The notes under the pieces: generated by a model | Database searches by the model: none | What the model was told of the DNA's origin: nothing | Seen by the model: the letters and a program-made list of their open reading frames with translations, nothing else | Translations under genes and position numbers: made by a program | Assembly: GCA_016290835.1 (NCBI GenBank) | Contig: JAEEVG010000014.1 | Coordinates: 1 to 46,902 of the forward strand | Direction: 5' to 3' | Source of the DNA: Bacteroidales bacterium | GTDB taxonomy: Bacteria > Bacteroidota > Bacteroidia > Bacteroidales > UBA932 | DNA: 46,902 nt | Shown: positions 2,830-15,840 of the stretch, in pieces | Position numbering within the stretch: position 1 is the stretch's first letter | How the letters are laid out: every line of letters starts with the position of its first letter

Positions 2830-2864
2830 TTGACTTAACATTGTACCACCAATTATCTACCGTT

Positions 2865-5249
2865 ATGTATAAGCATCTTTTACCCTGCCTGGCCGCACTG
2901 GTCTTGGGTCAGGCCCTTCTCCCCGCACAGGAGAAGTACGAAATCAACGGCATCGACATGACGCGTGTCGAATACGAGCATTTCAAGAATCCCGATCGGG
3001 AATTCCGGGGCGTGCGCTTCATCAGCCTGAACCTCGACCGCTCCACGGAGCAGTCCATGCGGGATGCCGTCGAGCGTGATTTCAAAACCGACAAGTGGGG
3101 CTCCTTCGTGCTGATCGCCGGCGGCGGCAGCACGGCCGGCCTGTCCGACGAATATCTCGCCGGCTCCGGCCGGCAGCGGAAGGAGACCGGCATCGCCTAC
3201 CTCAGCGAGGATTATTTCAAACTCTACCGGGCCGCCATCGAGAAGGGCCTGGAACTGGGCTTCAAGTGCACCACCCTCTATGATGAGTGGGAATATCCGA
3301 GCGGTATGGTGGAGGGCCTGTTCTACAGCCGCTACCCGCAGGACTGCGCCAAGAGCCTGGAGATGGAGGAGAAAGACGTATCGGGCCGCGCCCAGACCGT
3401 GACCCTCACCATGCCCGAAAGCGGGATCTATATGGGGTCCGTGCTGATGAACCTCGACACCTACGAAAGGCGGGATGTCAGCAGCTCCTTCCGCGACGGG
3501 ACCCTGCGCTGCAACATTCCCGCGGGCAACTGGAAACTGATGCTCTTCTGGCTCGATCCCGCTTTCGCCCCGCGTTCCAGCAAGGGCGGATTCGTGGACT
3601 ATATGGACCGGGAGGCGGTCGCGAAATACATCGAAATGAGTTTCGGCGCCTATTATGCTCACCTGTCCGAGTTCTTCGGCACCGTAATCCGCCGGACTTT
3701 CTACGACGAGCCCACGATGATGCTCCAGGGCGGGCGGATGTGGACGCCGAAGTTCAACGAAGGCTTCCGCGCACGCTACGGCTATGATCCGATGACCCTC
3801 TATCCGGCGTTGTGGTACAACATCGGTCCCGAGACGGCCTCGGCCCGCAATGCCCTGTTCGGCTTCCGCGCGGATCTGTTCGCCGAGAATTACATCGGCC
3901 AGGTGTCCGAGTGGTGCCGCGCCCACGGCATCAAGGGCGGCGGCCACCTCGACCAGGAAGAGACCCGCAACCCCGTCGGTCCCAACGGCGACCTGATGAA
4001 GGCGTTCAAGTACCAGGACGTCCCGGCTACGGACGATATCTATTATCCCGGCCGCTCCAACGTCGGCTACAAGGTCGTCTCCTCCTCGGCCTACAACTGG
4101 GACAAGCCCGAGATGTTCACGGAGACCTTCGCCGCCTACAGCCGGCCGCAGTACGCCGCCCTGACCCCCGAGAACTACAAGCGGGTTTCCCTGGACCAGA
4201 TGGCGATGGGTACCAACATCCAGATCGAGTTCGAGCAGAAGTTCGACGGCATCGACTACTTCCTCGGCCGCGGGGGCTATATGCTGCGCGGCGGCCGCCA
4301 CGTCGCCGACGTGGCCGTGGTCTATCCGATCGCCGCACTCCAGACGGCCTACTCCTTTCCTTCCAAGCAGCAGAACGGGCATTACTATGCCTATATGGGC
4401 GGCATCCTGCCTCCCGAGATCGACTATATGGATGTGGGAGAGAGTCTTTTCCGCGGCCTTCGCGTGGATTATACCTACCTCCATCCCGAGGTGCTGGTGG
4501 AGAAGTGCAGCGTGGAAGGCAAGGAACTGCGCCTGAACAACACCAACAACTGGGAGCAGTACAAGGTGCTGGTCCTGCCGGGCGGCGACACCTTCTCCGC
4601 CGATGCGGCCGCCCGCGTGCTGGAGTTCTTCCGTGCCGGCGGTACGGTCATCGCCACCAGCAAGCTGCCCCGCTGGTCCGCCGAGCCGGGCCGGGACCAG
4701 GAGATCCGGGACATGGTCTATGAGGTCTTCGGGATGTCCGACATCAAGCCGATGACCTGCAACGTGCGGCACGCCACCTACCGTTTCCTCAACATCTTCA
4801 CCCAGACCAATTCGGCTGGCGGACGCGGCTATTTCATCGCCCATCCCTACACCTCGACCCTGGAGGAGATCCTCGCCGAGGCGGTCCCGGTGCGGGACAT
4901 CGACCTGGGCGTGAAGGCGGACTACTACGTCAAGATGGATCACGACTACGAGGGTGCCCTGACCTATACGCACAAAGTGCGGGGCGGCAAGGACCTCTAC
5001 TTCATCTCCAATTCCACGGATGCGCCGGTACAGATGCAGGTGGCCCTGCGCGGTGCGAAGAACAGTGTCGAGCTCTGGGATCCGCAGACCGGTGAGCGCC
5101 ACACCGTCGAGGCCGTGCGCTCCGAGCGCCGCGCAGCCCGCCGCGCCGCACCCCGCGGAGATGCCGAGCAGGCCCCTTCGCTGGGCTTCGTGACGGAATT
5201 CCCGCTGGAATTGCCGGCCCTGACAGGCTGCTTCATTGTGGCGGAATAA
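2865..5249 (+). CDS. GH106-like secreted glycoside hydrolase (alpha-L-rhamnosidase family)
   Basis: This is a 794-residue exported enzyme related to the GH106/alpha-L-rhamnosidase group, which acts on rhamnose-containing plant glycans such as rhamnogalacturonan. The ATG at 2865 begins a clear signal peptide (MYKHLLPCLAALVLGQALLPAQ); a TTG at 2841 in the same frame is less likely. The barrel region carries the family-like segment TTLYDEWEYPSG near residue 135 and an acidic motif RRTFYDEPTMM near residue 280. A glutamine-amidotransferase-like region (KVLVLPGGDTFSADAA) and a beta-rich C-terminus follow, as in Glyco_hydro_106 proteins. It is shorter than the 962-residue GH106 at 29321-32209 and differs clearly in sequence. 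Exact substrate is unknown; a divergent branch of the family is possible. Confidence 0.65.
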   Translation: MYKHLLPCLAALVLGQALLPAQEKYEINGIDMTRVEYEHFKNPDREFRGVRFISLNLDRSTEQSMRDAVERDFKTDKWGSFVLIAGGGSTAGLSDEYLAGSGRQRKETGIAYLSEDYFKLYRAAIEKGLELGFKCTTLYDEWEYPSGMVEGLFYSRYPQDCAKSLEMEEKDVSGRAQTVTLTMPESGIYMGSVLMNLDTYERRDVSSSFRDGTLRCNIPAGNWKLMLFWLDPAFAPRSSKGGFVDYMDREAVAKYIEMSFGAYYAHLSEFFGTVIRRTFYDEPTMMLQGGRMWTPKFNEGFRARYGYDPMTLYPALWYNIGPETASARNALFGFRADLFAENYIGQVSEWCRAHGIKGGGHLDQEETRNPVGPNGDLMKAFKYQDVPATDDIYYPGRSNVGYKVVSSSAYNWDKPEMFTETFAAYSRPQYAALTPENYKRVSLDQMAMGTNIQIEFEQKFDGIDYFLGRGGYMLRGGRHVADVAVVYPIAALQTAYSFPSKQQNGHYYAYMGGILPPEIDYMDVGESLFRGLRVDYTYLHPEVLVEKCSVEGKELRLNNTNNWEQYKVLVLPGGDTFSADAAARVLEFFRAGGTVIATSKLPRWSAEPGRDQEIRDMVYEVFGMSDIKPMTCNVRHATYRFLNIFTQTNSAGGRGYFIAHPYTSTLEEILAEAVPVRDIDLGVKADYYVKMDHDYEGALTYTHKVRGGKDLYFISNSTDAPVQMQVALRGAKNSVELWDPQTGERHTVEAVRSERRAARRAAPRGDAEQAPSLGFVTEFPLELPALTGCFIVAE

Positions 5250-6932: not shown

Positions 6933-8984
6933 TTATTTCGCGGGGGAGAGGTCGAAGATGTAGATGTCGAAGCAGTAGGGGGCGAGGTTGACTTCGACGG
7001 AGCGGTCCAGGGAGCGGAGCTGGGCGCGGGTGGGTTTCCCGCCGGCGGCCTGGACGCGTTCGGCGGCCGTCACGGGCCGGCCGGAGAAGGCGCCGCGCAC
7101 CGGGGCGATCTGCTCCGGAAGCTCAATGGAATTGTCCTCATAGAGTTTGTCGGTGGTGAAGCGGACGCGCTCCACGGGGGCGATCTCCTGGCCCTTCTTC
7201 AGGCCGGTGAAGTTCAGCGCGAGGGTGCGGGGCTCCGCGGCGGTGTTGACCACCTTGACATAGATCTTGCCGCCGTCGATCACCGAGCTGGCGAAGATGC
7301 CGTCCTGGCCTTCTGCGCCCGACACGGTGGCACCGTCCATCGTGGTCCGCAGGACATTCTGTCCCTTGAACTCGGAATACAGCGACTGGACGTGCCAGCT
7401 GGCGGTGCGGAAGGACTTGAGGTTGTCATACCAGATCAGGTCCGGACGCCACTGCCAGCCCTCGACGTGGGCGAAGAGCGGGGCGTAGGTGGCCATGTGC
7501 ACGACGTCGGCGTTGCGCTCCAGGCCGGTCATGAAAGCCGCCTCGAGCAGCGAAGCGTAGAAATGGTTGAGCTTGCGGCCGCGGGCGTGGCAGGCATATT
7601 CGCCGGCGAAGACCTTCGGGCCCTTGCGGTCATAATTATCGTAGCGGGCGCCCTGGCTGAGGAACCACTCGTAGGGGCGATAGAAATGCTCATCCACGAG
7701 GTCGGCGTTCAGGCGGCGCATCTCGGGCCAGAGATAGTCGAACTGCTTGCCCTCGGAGTCGGGCCCGGACGAGCCGACGATCTTGATCTCGGGGTGGGCG
7801 GCGCGGATGGCCTTGAGGAAGGGCTCCAGGTGCTCGGGGTATTCCGGACCCCACTGCTCGTTGCCGATGCCGAGGAACTTGAGGTTGAACGGGGCGGGAT
7901 GCCCCATCTCGGCGCGCAGCGCGCCCCACTTCGTGTCGGTGGAGCCGTTGGCGAACTCGATCAGGTCCAGGGCGTCCTGGATGTAGGGCTGCAGTTCCGC
8001 CACGGGGACGTGGGCGTCGGGCGAATCGTTCTGGAACTGGCAGGCGAGGCCGCAGCTCAGGATCGGGAGCGGCTCGCTGCCGATCTCCTCGCTGAGCTGG
8101 AAGAACTCGAAGAAGCCCAGGCCGTAACTCTGGAAATAGTCCGGGAAGAAACGGTGCGGGAAGGTGTACTCCCAGCGGTTCTCGTTGAGAGGCCGGTTCT
8201 CTACGGGACCGACGGTATTCTTCCAGTTGTAGCGGGTGTCGAGGTCCGTGCCCTCGACGATGCAGCCGCCAGGGAAGCGGAAGATGCCGGGATGCAGGTC
8301 CGCAAGGGCCTGGGCAAGGTCCTTGCGCATACCGTTGCGGTGACCCATCCAGGTATCGGTGGGGAAGAGCGAGACGTGCTCGAGGTCCACCGTTACGTTC
8401 CGGCTCTCCAGGAAGATGCGCAGGGTGGCCTTGGGATCCGTCTTGCCGGCTTTCATCTCCACTTCATACTGCTTCCAGTCGCGGGAATCGACGGTGACCT
8501 TCGCCTGGGTGAAATATTGCTGTTCGCCCATCGAGGCGGTATTGATGAACTCGACGCGGAGCACGGCCTTGCCGCCCTCCGGGACGCGTGCCCAGACGCT
8601 GAAGCGGTAGGTCTCGCCTTCTTTGAGGCCGATCCCGAAGAATCCCTCATTGTCCAGGCCGGTCCATTTGTGCGGATGGCCGGGGTCGAAGAGGCGGACA
8701 TAGTGAGGGTTGCGATCGAAAGGGCCGTCTCCCCGGACCTCCACACGGCCGAAAGCTTTCCAGCCCTGGAGCGGGTCCTGCGGGAATTCGAACGAGCGAT
8801 TCTTGATCAGTTCGGCATAGAGACCGCCGTCGGCGGCGAAATTGATGTCTTCGAAGAAGATGCCGTACATAGTCGGCTGGATGGGGGCACCGGGTTTGGA
8901 AACCTGGATGTCGATCGGGCCGGCGAAGGCGCTGAGCGCGAGCGAAAGGGCCGCGGCAGCAGAAAGAATGCGGGAAAATTTCAT
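6933..8984 (-). CDS. Secreted GH51 alpha-L-arabinofuranosidase
   Basis: The enzyme releases terminal arabinose from arabinan, arabinoxylan or arabinogalactan side chains. It is 683 residues long from the ATG at 8984, which begins a signal peptide ending near SAFA|GP; the frame extends further upstream to 9116 but without signal features. A carbohydrate-binding-like beta domain lies at about residues 70-205. The catalytic barrel follows, with FRFPGGCIVEG near 235, the acid/base Glu in GIGNEQWG (E376) and the nucleophile Glu in VFAGEYACH (E462). A C-terminal beta-sandwich ends the protein, giving the classic GH51 layout. It is encoded alone on the minus strand with a strong terminator; no SusC/D genes adjoin it. 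Confidence 0.93.
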   Translation of the reverse strand: MKFSRILSAAAALSLALSAFAGPIDIQVSKPGAPIQPTMYGIFFEDINFAADGGLYAELIKNRSFEFPQDPLQGWKAFGRVEVRGDGPFDRNPHYVRLFDPGHPHKWTGLDNEGFFGIGLKEGETYRFSVWARVPEGGKAVLRVEFINTASMGEQQYFTQAKVTVDSRDWKQYEVEMKAGKTDPKATLRIFLESRNVTVDLEHVSLFPTDTWMGHRNGMRKDLAQALADLHPGIFRFPGGCIVEGTDLDTRYNWKNTVGPVENRPLNENRWEYTFPHRFFPDYFQSYGLGFFEFFQLSEEIGSEPLPILSCGLACQFQNDSPDAHVPVAELQPYIQDALDLIEFANGSTDTKWGALRAEMGHPAPFNLKFLGIGNEQWGPEYPEHLEPFLKAIRAAHPEIKIVGSSGPDSEGKQFDYLWPEMRRLNADLVDEHFYRPYEWFLSQGARYDNYDRKGPKVFAGEYACHARGRKLNHFYASLLEAAFMTGLERNADVVHMATYAPLFAHVEGWQWRPDLIWYDNLKSFRTASWHVQSLYSEFKGQNVLRTTMDGATVSGAEGQDGIFASSVIDGGKIYVKVVNTAAEPRTLALNFTGLKKGQEIAPVERVRFTTDKLYEDNSIELPEQIAPVRGAFSGRPVTAAERVQAAGGKPTRAQLRSLDRSVEVNLAPYCFDIYIFDLSPAK

Positions 8985-9054
8985 ATAGTGACAGGGTCTT
9001 AGGATGCGTGAATATAGTAAAAAAACCGCAGCTATGAAAATGCCGGCCCGGCGT

Positions 9055-9684
9055 TCAACTCGTTTCCCGGGTGAAGATCTCCTCGAACAGCGCGTGCAGG
9101 CGGGGCCGGTCTGCAATCAGCGAGCGGAGCTGGGCGAGTTTGGCGGCGTTCGGTGATTCGGGGATCCAGAGTTTGAGGTACCCCCCCTCGGCGTATTTTT
9201 CGCCCAGGTGCTGCAGGGTACGCTCCCAGTGTGCGGCACGGTCGAGTTCCGGATAATGGTCCAGGCCATATTGGATGGTGCGCGCTACGATGGTCTCCGG
9301 CTCGATCTGCCGGTCCGCCTCTGCGATGATGCGTCCGAGCAGGCTGCGGGGATCGTGGTCCAGGGAAGCGCGATGGTCTTCGGCCGCCCGGGCGATCTCC
9401 TCGATTTGCTCCGGGGAGAACCAGCGGGGCAGGAAGGGATCCTCCCGGATGATGCGTCCCGAGATGAGGTGATGGGTCCGGCGGTCTTCGCACAGGCCGG
9501 TGTCGTGGAAGGCCGCTGCGGCATAGACCATGTCGGGATCCACGGGGTAGAAAGCGGCGAGCGCCAGGGCGTCCCGGATGACGCGCTCCACGTGCGGCCG
9601 CCGGTGTGCCTTGTCGAAAGCGTCATAGCGGGGGAGAATCTCCGCTTCGACGTAAGCCTGCAGGGTGGGATAATCCTTTTCCAT
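9055..9684 (-). CDS. HD-domain phosphohydrolase
   Basis: This is a small cytoplasmic HD-superfamily protein (209 residues from ATG 9684). The metal ligands are visible in order: His in the RRPHVERV segment, His-Asp in AAFHDTGLCED and Asp in IIAEADRQI. Members of this family hydrolyse phosphate esters of nucleotides or related compounds; the substrate here is not predictable. The start at 9684 is preferred to 9711, which lies in AT-rich promoter-like sequence. The gene is divergent from the TapB-like gene with only 36 bases between the two starts, so both promoters must overlap. It ends 70 bases before the GH51 start. Confidence 0.75.
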   Translation of the reverse strand: MEKDYPTLQAYVEAEILPRYDAFDKAHRRPHVERVIRDALALAAFYPVDPDMVYAAAAFHDTGLCEDRRTHHLISGRIIREDPFLPRWFSPEQIEEIARAAEDHRASLDHDPRSLLGRIIAEADRQIEPETIVARTIQYGLDHYPELDRAAHWERTLQHLGEKYAEGGYLKLWIPESPNAAKLAQLRSLIADRPRLHALFEEIFTRETS

Positions 9685-9720: not shown

Positions 9721-10395
9721 GTGAAACCCTGCATTCTGCTGAGCCTGCTGTTGCTGCTGAGCCTGCCTGCCCGGGCAGGCGAGCCGTATTTCTGCACCCG
9801 GCCGGGCCGGACGCTTTATTACGAACGCACCGAGGCCGGCAGCGGAAAGCTCCGCCGCACGACCACCTTTGAGATTGACGCAGTGCGCCAGGACCCTTCC
9901 GGCCGCATGGTCGAGTACTTATTCACCCTCCGCCGGCCGGGCGGTGCGGCCTTGTATGGGGGCGCGGCGAAGATGCAGGTGGAGATCGCCCCGGACGGCA
10001 CCGTCCGGATGGACCTGGGAAGTACGCTGATCGCGATGTTGCAGAACCTGCTCCCGCGGGCCGCTTTCCGCTCGACCGGCACCCGGGCCCTGCTGCCCCC
10101 GGAGATGCGTCCCGGCGACCGCCTGCCGGATGCCCGCTGCGTCGTGGAGGGAGCGGGGATGAAATACCGGATCGATGTCACGGAGCGCGAGGTGCTCCGT
10201 CCCGAGCGGCTGGCGACCCCGGCCGGGACCTTCGATTGCGTCGTTGTACGCGAGCACAAGGTCGAGCGCGGTCCCGGACGATACCGCGACACGATCTCGG
10301 ATAGCTGGTACGCCCCGGGCGTGGGTTATGTCCGGCACGATACTTATGACAAGAATCTCCGCCTGGAGACGACGGAAATCCTGAAAAAATATTAA
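9721..10395 (+). CDS. Exported TapB/DUF3108-like protein
   Basis: This 224-residue protein starts at GTG 9721. The start is chosen because it begins a textbook signal peptide (VKPCILLSLLLLLSLPARA|GEP); the open frame upstream is antisense to the HD gene. The mature part is a single beta-rich domain with TLYYERTEAGSGK near the start and a late segment SWYAPGVGYVRHDTYD, both typical of the TapB/DUF3108 family found in Bacteroidota envelopes. The biochemical role of the family is not established. The gene lies 25 bases upstream of the YjbH-like gene and may be co-transcribed with it. Confidence 0.6.
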   Translation: MKPCILLSLLLLLSLPARAGEPYFCTRPGRTLYYERTEAGSGKLRRTTTFEIDAVRQDPSGRMVEYLFTLRRPGGAALYGGAAKMQVEIAPDGTVRMDLGSTLIAMLQNLLPRAAFRSTGTRALLPPEMRPGDRLPDARCVVEGAGMKYRIDVTEREVLRPERLATPAGTFDCVVVREHKVERGPGRYRDTISDSWYAPGVGYVRHDTYDKNLRLETTEILKKY

Positions 10396-10416
10396 ATTTG
10401 TAAGATTGTAAGTTTG
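10393..10416 (+). promoter_or_regulatory. Two candidate -7 boxes before the YjbH-like gene
   Basis: TAAATTTG at 10393-10400 and TAAGTTTG at 10409-10416 both match TAnnTTTG exactly. The first overlaps the stop codon of the TapB-like gene. The second ends only 4 bases before the ATG at 10421. No well-spaced -33 TTG is seen, and the stretch is AT-rich, so either box may be fortuitous. Confidence 0.4.
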
Positions 10417-10420
10417 CGAA

Positions 10421-11629
10421 ATGAAAAAGTGGATCCCGATCCTGTGTGCCACCCTGCTGTCGAGTCTCCCGTCGGCGGCCCAGCTTGTCAGCCACGCAGA
10501 CAGCGTGGCGCAGCGTCTCGCTGCGGCGGGTTTTGCGAACGTCCGTGCCGCCGAGACGCCGGAATTCACGGTCTATACCGTTGAAAACGATTATTACAAA
10601 ATACCGGCGGAAGGCTTCGTCCGCGCCGTCCAGATCATCGAGGGCGCCGGCCTGGACGGGACCCGGCCGGTCAAACTGATCGGTACAAATAGCAAGATTC
10701 CGGAACTGACGATCACCTACGATCCGCAGATCGGCGTGTGGCGGGCCACCAAGCGCCTGGATGCCTCCTGGGATGCCGTCCGGAACAAGGAGCGGCTCAA
10801 TGATTCCTTCCTCAAGACGAACTTGATCCTCTATCCCTCCTTATCTTTGACGAATCTGGTCATCGATCAGGTATACCAGAGTCTTTGGGAAATCAAGCCC
10901 ACGCTGGAGGTGCCGCTGTGGAAGGGAGCCCGGTTCACCTATCAACTGATCATCCCCATTTATACGGACTTCATCGACGCCAGTTATAAAAAAATCCATC
11001 CGGGTTTCATCACGCTGTCCCAGCGCTTCCGGGATCCCTGGCACCTGAACATCCTTGGCAAGGTGACGGTCGGCAATATGTCCAACCGCCGTTACGGAGC
11101 GATGCTCGAAGCTGCCTGGTGGTTCCCCAACGAGCGATTCTGGCTGGATGCCAATGCGGGTGTCGTCTCTCCGGCAATGTTCAACGGGTTCCAGTGGCGT
11201 TACGCTCTGGAGCCGATGTTCATCTTCGGCCTGGCAGGCAATTACTACAACCCTTCCCTCCAGACCCAGTTCATCTTGCGGGCCCAGCGTTTCCTGTATG
11301 GGGATTACGCGCTCAAATATGAGATGATACGGCATTTCCGCCACTGTTCCGTCGGTTTTTATGCCGAGTGGGGGGTGGAGATCTATGACAGGATTTATTA
11401 CACACCGAAACTCAACGGCGGTTTCCGTTTCCAGATTGCACTGCCGCCTTTCCGCATGAAGCGCCACGGCTATATCCCCAAGATTACGACCTCCGGCCAG
11501 ATGGGAATGAACTACAATGCCAACAACGAACAGCGTTTTTACCAGGAACTCCGCACGGAGGCAGACGACAATATTATGAGCAGAAACTACTTAAACCCCT
11601 ATTATATTAATATGGAGTTATCTCGATGA
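10421..11629 (+). CDS. Predicted outer-membrane protein, YjbH/GfcD-like
   Basis: This is a 402-residue exported protein with a signal peptide (MKKWIPILCATLLSSLPSAAQ). The N-terminal part (LAAAGFANVRAAETPEFTVYTVEN, then VQIIEGAGL and IPELTITYD) resembles the periplasmic domain of YjbH-type exopolysaccharide proteins. The rest alternates aromatic and polar residues in amphipathic strands (for example PLWKGARFTYQLIIP and KITTSGQMGMNYN), as in an outer-membrane barrel. It is shorter than Escherichia coli YjbH. No capsule genes lie nearby; the neighbours are other envelope proteins, so a surface role is likely but a polysaccharide role is inference. Confidence 0.5.
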   Translation: MKKWIPILCATLLSSLPSAAQLVSHADSVAQRLAAAGFANVRAAETPEFTVYTVENDYYKIPAEGFVRAVQIIEGAGLDGTRPVKLIGTNSKIPELTITYDPQIGVWRATKRLDASWDAVRNKERLNDSFLKTNLILYPSLSLTNLVIDQVYQSLWEIKPTLEVPLWKGARFTYQLIIPIYTDFIDASYKKIHPGFITLSQRFRDPWHLNILGKVTVGNMSNRRYGAMLEAAWWFPNERFWLDANAGVVSPAMFNGFQWRYALEPMFIFGLAGNYYNPSLQTQFILRAQRFLYGDYALKYEMIRHFRHCSVGFYAEWGVEIYDRIYYTPKLNGGFRFQIALPPFRMKRHGYIPKITTSGQMGMNYNANNEQRFYQELRTEADDNIMSRNYLNPYYINMELSR

Positions 11630-13851: not shown

Positions 13852-13881
13852 TTTTCTCTTTAGATAAATATTATTCGTGAG

Positions 13882-13912
13882 GACCCGCAAGCAATTGCGG
13901 GTCTTCTTTTTT
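13882..13912 (+). terminator. Terminator after ompA
   Basis: A 9-bp perfect stem (GACCCGCAA 13882-13890, TTGCGGGTC 13895-13903) with a GCAA tetraloop is followed by a T-rich tract. It ends about 16 bases before the promoter of the next gene. Confidence 0.88.
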
Positions 13913-13927: not shown

Positions 13928-13935
13928 TATCTTTG
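13928..13935 (+). promoter_or_regulatory. -7 promoter box next to the GHMP kinase start
   Basis: TATCTTTG is a perfect TAnnTTTG box ending 4 bases before the ATG at 13940. With the usual distance from box to transcription start, the mRNA would begin within a couple of bases of the start codon. Confidence 0.6.
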
Positions 13936-13939
13936 CGCT

Positions 13940-15112
13940 ATGAAGTGCATCAGCAGGTTTGAATCGATCTATCACCGCTCTCCTCAGGCGGTTGCTTTTT
14001 GTCCCTATCGCGTATGCCCCGTCGGAGCACACGTCGACCACCAGTATGGCAAGGTCAGCGGTTTCGCTATCGACAGAGGCATACACATCGCCTACGACAC
14101 CAAACTCAACGGTATCGTCGAACTGGCCTCCTTGCAGTTTCCGAAACGAGCACAGTGGCACGTCCGGGACGTGTTCGAGACCCGGCGCGGAGACTGGGCG
14201 GATTATCTGCGCGGAGCGACCATCGAACTGGTCCGGCGCTATCCGATCCGGAACGGAATCAGCGGCGTGATCGAAGGCACTTTGCCGATCGGCGGCCTGT
14301 CTTCGTCGGCGGCCGTGACCATCGCCTTCCTGAAGGCGCTCTGCAGGGTCAATGACCTGCATCCCGCCCAGCATGAACTGATCGAGATGGCTTTGATGGC
14401 GGAAATCAATTATGTGGGTGTGTCCGTGGGCAAGTTGGACCAGTGTTGTGAGGTCTATTCGAAAAAGGATCATCTGCTCTATCTCGACACCCTCGATGAT
14501 TCGTTTGAATTGATTCCGGCCGCTCCGGGCGTCAAACCCTGGAAGATCGGTATCTTCTTCTCCGGATTGGAGCGCAATCTCCAGTCCAGCCGTTACAATA
14601 TGCGTGTTGACGAAGTGCGCAGCGCGGCCTATGCCCTGAAAGCCTATGCCGGGATGGAATATGGCAAGTTCCGCGAGACGCATCTCCGCGAGGTGCCCCG
14701 CGAGGTGTATGACCGCTTCAAAGACCGTCTTCCCGAGACCTGGCGGCGGCGGGCAGAGCATTTCTACACGGAGTTCGAGCGGGTAGAACGCGGTGCAGCC
14801 GCCTGGCGCGCCGGGGATATCGAGACCTATGGGCGGATCTCCACGGAGAGCGGGCATTCCTCGATCTACAACTGGGAGACGGGATCGCCTGAACTCAAGT
14901 TGCTCTACGAACTCATCGTCCGCCAGGACGGCGTCTATGGCGGCCGCTTCAGCGGCGCCGGCTTCAAAGGCTGCTGCATGGCCTTGATCGATCCGGCATA
15001 TGAGGACAGCATCGCCTCCGCGGTCCGCCGGGCCTATATAGCTGAATTCCCCGCACTTGCGGATAGATTCCTGTATAGCGGATGCTATTCTTCGAACGGA
15101 CTGAGCCTATGA
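13940..15112 (+). CDS. Galacturonokinase-like GHMP kinase (galactokinase family)
   Basis: This 390-residue cytoplasmic sugar kinase is predicted to phosphorylate the anomeric C1 of a hexose or hexuronic acid. The sugar-binding motif reads CPYRVCPVGAHVDHQYG (residues 21-37). This is close to plant galacturonokinase (which has PYRICPLGAHIDHQGG) rather than the GRVNLIGEHTDY of galactokinase. The ATP loop is LPIGGLSSSAA (115-125), the likely catalytic Asp is D167 in GKLDQ, and the C-terminal motif is GRFSGAGFKGCC. The start at 13940 is fixed by the promoter and by family length. The next gene, a nucleotidyltransferase, overlaps its stop (ATGA), so the two are probably coupled to make a nucleotide sugar. 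Galacturonate as substrate is inferred from motif similarity; galactose or another sugar remains possible. Confidence 0.8.
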   Translation: MKCISRFESIYHRSPQAVAFCPYRVCPVGAHVDHQYGKVSGFAIDRGIHIAYDTKLNGIVELASLQFPKRAQWHVRDVFETRRGDWADYLRGATIELVRRYPIRNGISGVIEGTLPIGGLSSSAAVTIAFLKALCRVNDLHPAQHELIEMALMAEINYVGVSVGKLDQCCEVYSKKDHLLYLDTLDDSFELIPAAPGVKPWKIGIFFSGLERNLQSSRYNMRVDEVRSAAYALKAYAGMEYGKFRETHLREVPREVYDRFKDRLPETWRRRAEHFYTEFERVERGAAAWRAGDIETYGRISTESGHSSIYNWETGSPELKLLYELIVRQDGVYGGRFSGAGFKGCCMALIDPAYEDSIASAVRRAYIAEFPALADRFLYSGCYSSNGLSL

Positions 15113-15840
15113 AATGTCTGATTCTGGCTGCGGGGTATGCCACCCGCCTTTATCCGCTTACGGAGAACTTCCCCAAACCATTACTCAAAGTAGGGGAGAA
15201 GACCATCCTGGACTGGCTGATCGATGATGTCGCGGCTTCCGGGGAGGTGGATGGCTTCGTAGTGATCTCCAATCACAGATTCGCCTCCATGTTCCGCGAA
15301 TGGGCTCCGGAAGGCGTTGTGGTCGTAGACGACGGCACTTCCTCCAACGAGACGCGGCTGGGGGCTGTCCGCGACATTCAATTCGCCATCGGGCAGCTCG
15401 GCCTGGACGAGGACCTGCTGGTGATCGCCGGAGACAATGTGCTGGACTTTAGCCTGGGGGCTTTCCTGCGCTACGCCCGCTCCAAAGGGACTTCCTGTGT
15501 GATGCGCTATTATGAGCCCGACGAAACCCGGCTGCACAAGAGCGGGGTCGTCGAGGTGGATGCGCAGGACCGCATCCTGTCGATGGAGGAGAAACCCGCG
15601 GCTCCGAAGAGCCGCTGGTGCTGTCCGCCCTTCTATTTCTATACGTGCGCGGATGCGCGCCGCGTGGGCGAGGCCATCGCTTCGGGATGCCCCGTGGATG
15701 CACCCGGGTCCCTTGCCGCCTGGCTGGCGGCCCGGACGGCCGTCCACGCGATGGAAATGCCGGGCCACCGCTATGATATCGGCAATCTGGCGAGTTATAA
15801 ACAGGTGAGTGCCACTTACAAAGGAATAACGGAGATTTGA
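15109..15840 (+). CDS. Sugar-1-phosphate nucleotidyltransferase
   Basis: This is a 243-residue enzyme of the NTP_transferase (RmlA/GalU-like) family, transferring NMP to a sugar-1-phosphate. The signature LILAAGYATRLYPLTENFPKP at residues 4-24 contains the G-x-x-T-R-L nucleotide loop and the Lys of FPKP. IAGDNVLDF carries the metal-binding Asp, and EEKPA follows near residue 165. The ATG at 15109 overlaps the kinase stop in an ATGA arrangement, implying translational coupling and a shared pathway: the kinase makes the sugar-1-phosphate and this enzyme activates it. The stop codon lies in the loop of the terminator. Which NTP is used cannot be told. Confidence 0.85.
   Translation: MKCLILAAGYATRLYPLTENFPKPLLKVGEKTILDWLIDDVAASGEVDGFVVISNHRFASMFREWAPEGVVVVDDGTSSNETRLGAVRDIQFAIGQLGLDEDLLVIAGDNVLDFSLGAFLRYARSKGTSCVMRYYEPDETRLHKSGVVEVDAQDRILSMEEKPAAPKSRWCCPPFYFYTCADARRVGEAIASGCPVDAPGSLAAWLAARTAVHAMEMPGHRYDIGNLASYKQVSATYKGITEI

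Follow-up and report, generated by a model that had tools for sequence, protein, structure and literature searches.

Organization of the kinase-nucleotidyltransferase locus

The DNA analyzed here (the window) is a stretch of 46,902 nucleotides from a Bacteroidales bacterium (assembly GCA_016290835.1, contig JAEEVG010000014.1), and its forward strand carries a gene for a galacturonokinase-like GHMP kinase (GAK) followed by a gene for a sugar-1-phosphate nucleotidyltransferase (NTP). A preliminary description of the window had proposed that the two proteins form a direct salvage route from free galacturonate to a nucleotide sugar. The features of the locus are as follows.

13879..13906, + strand: terminator-like hairpin between the OmpA gene and the kinase (hairpin scan)
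13928..13935, + strand: TATCTTTG just 5' of the kinase ATG, promoter-like by its fit to TAnnTTTG
13940..15112, + strand: galacturonokinase-like GHMP kinase (GAK) open reading frame (ORF), 390 aa
14003..14050, + strand: substrate-binding motif CPYRVCPVGAHVDHQY where galactokinase has GRVNLIGEHTDY, with Ala30 instead of Glu (kinase residues 21-36)
15109..15112, + strand: ATGA overlap of the kinase stop and the NTP start
15109..15840, + strand: sugar-1-phosphate nucleotidyltransferase (NTP) ORF, probably using uridine triphosphate (UTP), 243 aa
15828..15851, + strand: terminator-like hairpin at the 3' end of the NTP gene (hairpin scan)

The window kinase carries CPYRVCPVGAHVDHQ, and the motifs CPYRVCPVGAHVDHQYG, SGHSSIYNWETG and GVYGGRFSGAGFKGCC are all present in its translation, so that the altered motif and the two further motif regions of the preliminary description are borne out; it reads GAHVDH where galactokinases have GEHTDY, which contains the Glu. 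The sequence TATCTTTG fits TAnnTTTG, the -7 promoter motif of Bacteroidota. With a hairpin on either side, the kinase and NTP genes look like a self-contained two-gene unit; the scan returned five hairpins against 2.3 expected on both strands, and single sites are thus weak evidence.

The window kinase matches Pfam PF10509, PF00288 and PF08544, all above the cut-offs, and remains below every NCBIfam galactokinase equivalog cut-off (188 of 443 bits for NF003006 and 179 of 227 bits for TIGR00131). Its AlphaFold2 model (predicted local distance difference test score, pLDDT, of 88.1, and below 50 for residues 214-219) adopts the galactokinase fold, with a Foldseek template modeling (TM) score of 0.85 to human GALK1. 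The NTP matches PF00483 (86 bits against a cut-off of 21.2), and its model (pLDDT 91.4) has an RmlA-type fold (TM 0.76-0.80 to RmlA); its best NCBIfam model is the haloarchaeal UTP-glucose-1-phosphate uridylyltransferase (78 of 400 bits). Eukaryotic UDP-sugar pyrophosphorylase (USP), a large enzyme, was considered for the NTP and rejected, as the NTP has 243 residues and a PF00483 domain and is not of the UDPGP family. The heptose kinase/guanylyltransferase pair HddA/HddC likewise combines a GHMP kinase with a small nucleotidyltransferase, but the respective models score just 17 and 32 bits, far under their cut-offs of 600 and 300.

Distribution of the kinase and its linkage to the nucleotidyltransferase

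A scan of genome contigs confirmed at least 589 relatives of the window kinase, and the counts over 80 loci given below refer to the best 80, which are 65-84% identical to it. The carriers are gut and rumen Bacteroidales and, according to the record labels, Clostridia and Oscillospiraceae, in addition to Phocaeicola oris, an oral or animal isolate. Rather than the isolated oddity for which it had been taken, GAK is a family widespread among the Bacteroidales and Clostridia of the gut. A profile search of 295 evenly sampled genomes of the class gave 75 matches at 1e-20, of which two are GAK by score: the window's (754 bits) and that of genome G505 (470 bits), which is 45% identical to the window's and also has an NTP downstream. 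The remaining 73, judged by score alone, reach at most 194 bits, in the galactokinase range. The DNA pattern GAH.DHQ matched in 19 of 296 genomes of the phylum, and among the 22 sites listed GAHVDHQ is encoded in the window's alone; this pattern misses the DHN variant, the other sites look like chance matches, and no useful distribution is obtained from it.

The overlap with the NTP gene, noted in the preliminary description, also has its counterpart in the relatives. The NTP gene adjoins the kinase gene in 76 of the 80 loci, directly downstream in 75 and upstream in one (L008), which argues that the pairing is not due to chance, and the gene starts touch or overlap in 21. Four loci have no NTP in the stretch examined (L033, L049, L057 and L064), and the L064 contig stops just past the kinase. 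In L049, an epimerase gene and a UDP-glucose dehydrogenase gene flank the kinase on either side.

Substrate pocket and phylogeny of the kinase

All 81 GAK sequences have Ala where galactokinases carry the Glu, and 73 of them fit the full pattern CP.R.CP.G.H.DH; the galacturonokinase motif is CPYR.CP.GAH.DH. Thirty-three of the 81 were compared residue by residue with 21 galactokinases and with the galacturonokinase of Arabidopsis (AtGalAK, At3g10700), whose sequence was entered by hand rather than from a database for this comparison and for the trees and identities below. The residues studied in the plant enzyme are Ala41, Tyr250 and Ala368, and the sequence entered has them at those numbers, which favors its correctness. 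The Glu of all 21 galactokinases is replaced by Ala in all 33 GAK sequences and in AtGalAK, and the changes of Tyr to His34 and of Asn to Cys26 are equally uniform and also shared with AtGalAK. Additionally, a Gly found in all 21 galactokinases is Lys343 in the 33 GAK sequences and Arg in AtGalAK. Arg24, His31, Asp33 and Asp167 are unchanged between the two groups, and of these Arg24 and Asp167 are catalytic. The window kinase has Tyr219 where 29 of the 33 aligned GAK sequences have Phe. In galactokinase, the Glu sits at the C6 hydroxyl of the sugar; by deduction, a sugar with a C6 carboxylate would need an enzyme without this Glu, and Lys343 is a candidate for the residue that faces this carboxylate.

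Two trees were calculated. The first comprised 62 sequences, among them the same 33 GAK sequences, AtGalAK, galactokinases from the same genomes, E. coli GalK and a Pyrococcus galactokinase; the second comprised 40, with 13 GAK sequences including, to break up the branch, the divergent, 45%-identical one of G505, and omitted the two long rows of Pyrococcus and L106. From the 30 PF10509 loci fetched, L120 and L121 were omitted owing to a misfit in the motif search, and L123 and L124 because they are themselves GAK. In both trees, the GAK sequences and AtGalAK form one group with 100/100 support. The galactokinases of the GAK-carrying genomes and E. coli GalK lie outside this group in the first tree, in which the Pyrococcus galactokinase is sister to GAK plus the plant enzyme (97/96) and the galactokinases do not form one clade; without Pyrococcus, in the second tree, they do (92/38). 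AtGalAK shares about 38-39% identity with the best GAK sequences and 36% with the window's, compared with 25.5-27.3% with the ten galactokinases listed. These results support the kinship of GAK with plant galacturonokinase, as entered here, and not with ordinary galactokinase; the grouping with ordinary galactokinases by which the preliminary description could have been overturned was not found.

A search of 36 GAK genomes from among the 80 showed a separate galactokinase-type gene in at least 26, with GEHTDY in 18, GEHIDY in one and GNHTDH in seven, and at least two PF10509 matches in 31. A plain galactokinase is rejected on the basis of the tree, the motif, these coexisting genes and the gene context described below. 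A related explanation is that GAK is a divergent galactokinase which, with the NTP as a UDP-galactose pyrophosphorylase, bypasses GalT and converts galactose via galactose-1-phosphate to UDP-galactose. The kept fold and the conserved Asp33, His31, Arg24 and Asp167 are compatible with it, as is the window's genome, in which no second PF10509 gene was found. We consider it improbable, however, given the loss of the Glu in all 81 sequences, the position of GAK outside the galactokinases in both trees, the separate galactokinase-type genes, and a uronate context that is absent around 20 such genes.

The GNHTDH sequences, which have this motif in place of GEHTDY, belong to another GHMP clade of approximately 380-445 aa (L107, L111, L115, L116, L117, L119 and L122). 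This clade forms its own 100/100 branch in both trees and is found in several GAK genomes.

Putative UDP-uronate genes near the operon

A gene for a UDP-glucuronate-4-epimerase-like enzyme (GAE) is present, within the stretch examined, in 25 of the 80 GAK loci and one for UDP-glucose dehydrogenase (Ugd) in 11, with either of them in 29. Seven gene orders occur, namely kinase (KIN)-NTP-GAE in ten loci, GAE-KIN-NTP in eight, KIN-NTP-GAE-UGD and KIN-NTP-UGD in four each, and UGD-KIN-NTP-GAE, GAE-KIN-NTP-UGD and GAE-KIN-UGD once each; in L040 and L048, the NTP and GAE are fused into one protein of 611 aa. None of 20 galactokinase-type neighborhoods of approximately 9-12 kb from the same genomes (14 GEHTDY, one GEHIDY and five GNHTDH) contains an NTP, GAE or Ugd above 30% identity. 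The difference in GAE context between GAK and galactokinase-type loci has a Fisher p of 0.003, which serves as a guide only as the sequences are related. That the gene order varies and that fusions occur speaks for a link between the kinase/NTP pair and uronate genes having been selected repeatedly, and from the linkage and fusion to a UDP-uronate 4-epimerase-like gene, the NTP probably uses UTP and galacturonate-1-phosphate.

The GAE neighbors contain ASSSSVYG in 23 of 25 cases and RFFTVYGP in 22. In UDP-glucuronate 4-epimerase, Thr/Ser126, Ser127 and Ser128 contact the carboxylate of the substrate, and decarboxylases have Glu instead of Ser at position 128 (PMC7984243). The GAE neighbors thus have the Ser/Thr-Ser-Ser carboxylate triplet (23 of 25), and not the residues of GalE or of the decarboxylases. 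Their nearest solved structure is 5u4q (366-391 bits, and 368 for the copy of the window's genome), which is probably of the Klebsiella Uge/GlaKP type. The next matching structures are 6zl6 and its kin, presumably the Bacillus cereus enzyme of PMC7984243.

This context bears on three other substrates. GAE and Ugd would suit either uronate, and the operon might have glucuronate as its main substrate, or accept both uronates, with UDP-glucuronate made first; zebrafish in fact fuses a bacterial-type nucleotidyltransferase domain to a glucuronokinase (PMC3938481). This explanation is also an unlikely one. GAK belongs to the galactokinase/GalAK branch, in trees that were calculated without plant glucuronokinase. 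The latter belongs to another branch of the GHMP kinases, and the residue by which galactokinase recognizes the galacto C3 and C4 hydroxyls, Asp33, is invariant.

Alternatively, the substrate could be a galacto sugar that lacks C6 or is 6-deoxy (L-arabinopyranose or D-fucose), and the Ala would merely tolerate the missing C6 hydroxyl. L-arabinopyranose superposes on galactopyranose minus C6, and GH51 arabinofuranosidase-type genes lie near GAK in 11 loci, the window included. The fusion or adjacency of the NTP to an epimerase of the UDP-uronate type, and the kinship of GAK with GalAK rather than with arabinokinase, whose motif is presumably different, make such a substrate quite improbable. 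Least probable is that the pair, by way of a broad epimerase, makes a different acidic or amino galacto-sugar nucleotide, for instance of the GalNAcA type, for use in capsules: many of the loci are by eye polysaccharide loci and WbgU/WbpP-type epimerases also match the neighboring epimerase, but with 115-137 bits the latter is much more distant from these than from 5u4q, and it carries the Ser triplet of UDP-glucuronate 4-epimerases.

Uronate metabolism in the carrier genomes

The window's genome has a GAE (69% identical) on contig C93, where it adjoins genes with Wzz/GNVR/AAA_31, Poly_export and CpsB_CapC domains, and by these domains the locus is of the capsule or exopolysaccharide export type. 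Another NTP transferase (PF12804/PF00483; L184:667-1515) lies next to the epimerase in this locus. No Ugd was found in the window's genome, which is 94.34% complete and may therefore have a missed gene, and no nucleotide-sugar dehydrogenase exceeds the TIGR03026 cut-off in it (best score 19 against 189.8 bits), whereas 14 of 14 control genomes match this model, 13 of them above the cut-off. Among 38 GAK genomes, GAE is present in 27 at E<=1e-60 and Ugd in 21, and 11 of the 27 have GAE without Ugd. In nine of these 11, no nucleotide-sugar dehydrogenase scores above the TIGR03026 cut-off, whereas G299 and G303 encode enzymes that resemble UDP-ManNAc and UDP-GlcNAc dehydrogenases. A genome that relies on salvage would be expected to retain a GAE while having no de novo source of the GAE substrate, and salvage may be the sole source of UDP-uronates in the window's genome.

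The uronate isomerase UxaC is found in 35 of 37 GAK genomes, including the window's, which indicates that the kinase-NTP route is a side route beside isomerase-type uronate catabolism rather than a substitute for it. The co-occurrence was also considered as support for galacturonate, with 35 of 37 GAK genomes compared with 45 of 295 genomes of the class. It was not counted, as the enrichment is no longer seen within the order, where UxaC is present in 8 of the 9 other genomes listed, which points to an effect of habitat or lineage.

Proposed pathway and comparison with known systems

In light of the motif, the trees and the gene context, the two genes are read as a salvage operon whose substrate is a uronic acid of galacto configuration, D-galacturonate (GalA) being the likeliest, with a probability of roughly 0.68; from homology and context we infer the substrate, UTP as the second substrate of the NTP, the direction in which the route runs and its end in polysaccharide. 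The best reading is thus a bacterial version of the known plant salvage route. The GAK kinase would phosphorylate GalA at C1 with ATP to give GalA-1-phosphate, and the NTP would convert this with UTP to UDP-GalA and pyrophosphate. By homology, GAE, where present, would interconvert UDP-GalA and UDP-glucuronate, so that both uronic donors could derive from a scavenged pectin sugar, and from the gene neighborhoods these donors would enter surface polysaccharide, capsule or exopolysaccharide. The part of the preliminary description that concerned a direct route to a nucleotide sugar thus gains support from the UDP-uronate genes and the NTP-epimerase fusions, and GalA itself is retained as the inferred substrate only. 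A further, tentative and somewhat doubtful extension is that in some gut bacteria, including that of the window, the operon would be the only source of uronic-acid nucleotide sugars: without Ugd, GalA would be converted to UDP-GalA and, by the epimerase in reverse, to UDP-glucuronate, and the composition of capsule or exopolysaccharide would depend on dietary pectin.

Several observations weigh against the salvage of GalA by this operon. AtGalAK, a sequence entered by hand, sits on a long branch, and for both trees the program cautions against long-branch joins. Neither GAE nor Ugd was found near the kinase in the window itself or, in the stretch examined, in 51 of the 80 loci, and of the 38 genomes, 11 show no GAE match at E<=1e-60 and 17 no Ugd. 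The GAE and Ugd genes score under the NCBIfam equivalog cut-offs, 5u4q is named a dTDP-glucose 4,6-dehydratase in the PDB, and the closest NCBIfam and PDB matches of the NTP are glucose-1-phosphate nucleotidyltransferases. The loss of the UxaC enrichment within the order points in the same direction. Additionally, a glucose-6-phosphate isomerase gene, which the model leaves unexplained, immediately precedes the kinase gene in 19 of the 80 loci (L011, L012, L015, L018-L021, L024, L025, L027, L029, L030, L038, L042, L044, L046, L052, L056 and L066); the identity is high, at 83-100%, which suggests the synteny of one lineage.

In plants, GalA is converted to GalA-1-phosphate and then to UDP-GalA by GalAK and a broad UDP-sugar pyrophosphorylase (PMC8636097). 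The same two-step logic (GalAK and USP/Sloppy) is proposed here, and GAK shares the kinase motif and the branch of the plant enzyme; in contrast to the plant system, the operon is bacterial, its NTP is short (243 aa, RmlA-type) and it is often tied to capsule genes. GalK has the same fold and catalytic residues as GAK and differs in the Glu, which is Ala in GAK, in other pocket residues and in its separate clade, and both kinds coexist in one genome. The zebrafish protein DrGKUP, a glucuronokinase-nucleotidyltransferase fusion also present in other lower animals, likewise couples a uronate kinase to a short bacterial-type nucleotidyltransferase, but it acts on glucuronate only, its kinase is of the glucuronokinase branch and its pyrophosphorylase activity is very low (PMC3938481). 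Prokaryote homologs of its pyrophosphorylase domain include those of Prevotella and Alistipes; prokaryotes are said to carry this domain alone, and the available part of the text mentions no neighboring kinase (PMC3938481). If the NTPs of the operon were orthologous to these homologs, such bacteria would have in the operon the kinase that was missing.

The product of Bacteroides fragilis FKP serves capsule and surface polysaccharide. FKP, an L-fucokinase/GDP-fucose pyrophosphorylase, is also a GHMP kinase joined to a nucleotidyltransferase and salvages a host or diet sugar (PMC11982464), but it uses L-fucose and GTP, is a single fused protein and belongs to another GHMP branch.

Among the matches listed by full-text searches of an open-licence library, there was no report of a bacterial galacturonokinase. 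If the proposed route is correct, gut bacteria would have, in addition to the isomerase and oxidative routes of breakdown, a third use for galacturonate, its direct activation for glycan building, and dietary pectin would be linked to the surface polysaccharides that Bacteroidales and Clostridia of the rumen and gut make, in the way that FKP links L-fucose to them. It would also explain a large gene group that is now liable to be called galactokinase, and would offer glycochemists a bacterial GalA kinase; the plant enzyme was unstable and too weak in the hands of the authors of PMC7984243.

Neighboring genes

The operon is flanked upstream by an OmpA-family gene and downstream by a small unassigned ORF, a ZapA gene and an RNase Y gene. 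Near the operon in seven Clostridia-labelled loci, a PF14907 'uncharacterised nucleotidyltransferase' gene recurs, the Pfam match being that of the L073 copy at 10300-11481. Further upstream of the kinase, the window contains a GH106 rhamnosidase-like gene (2841-5249, + strand) and a GH51-type alpha-L-arabinofuranosidase gene (6933-9116, - strand), both of which fit a degrader of plant polysaccharides.

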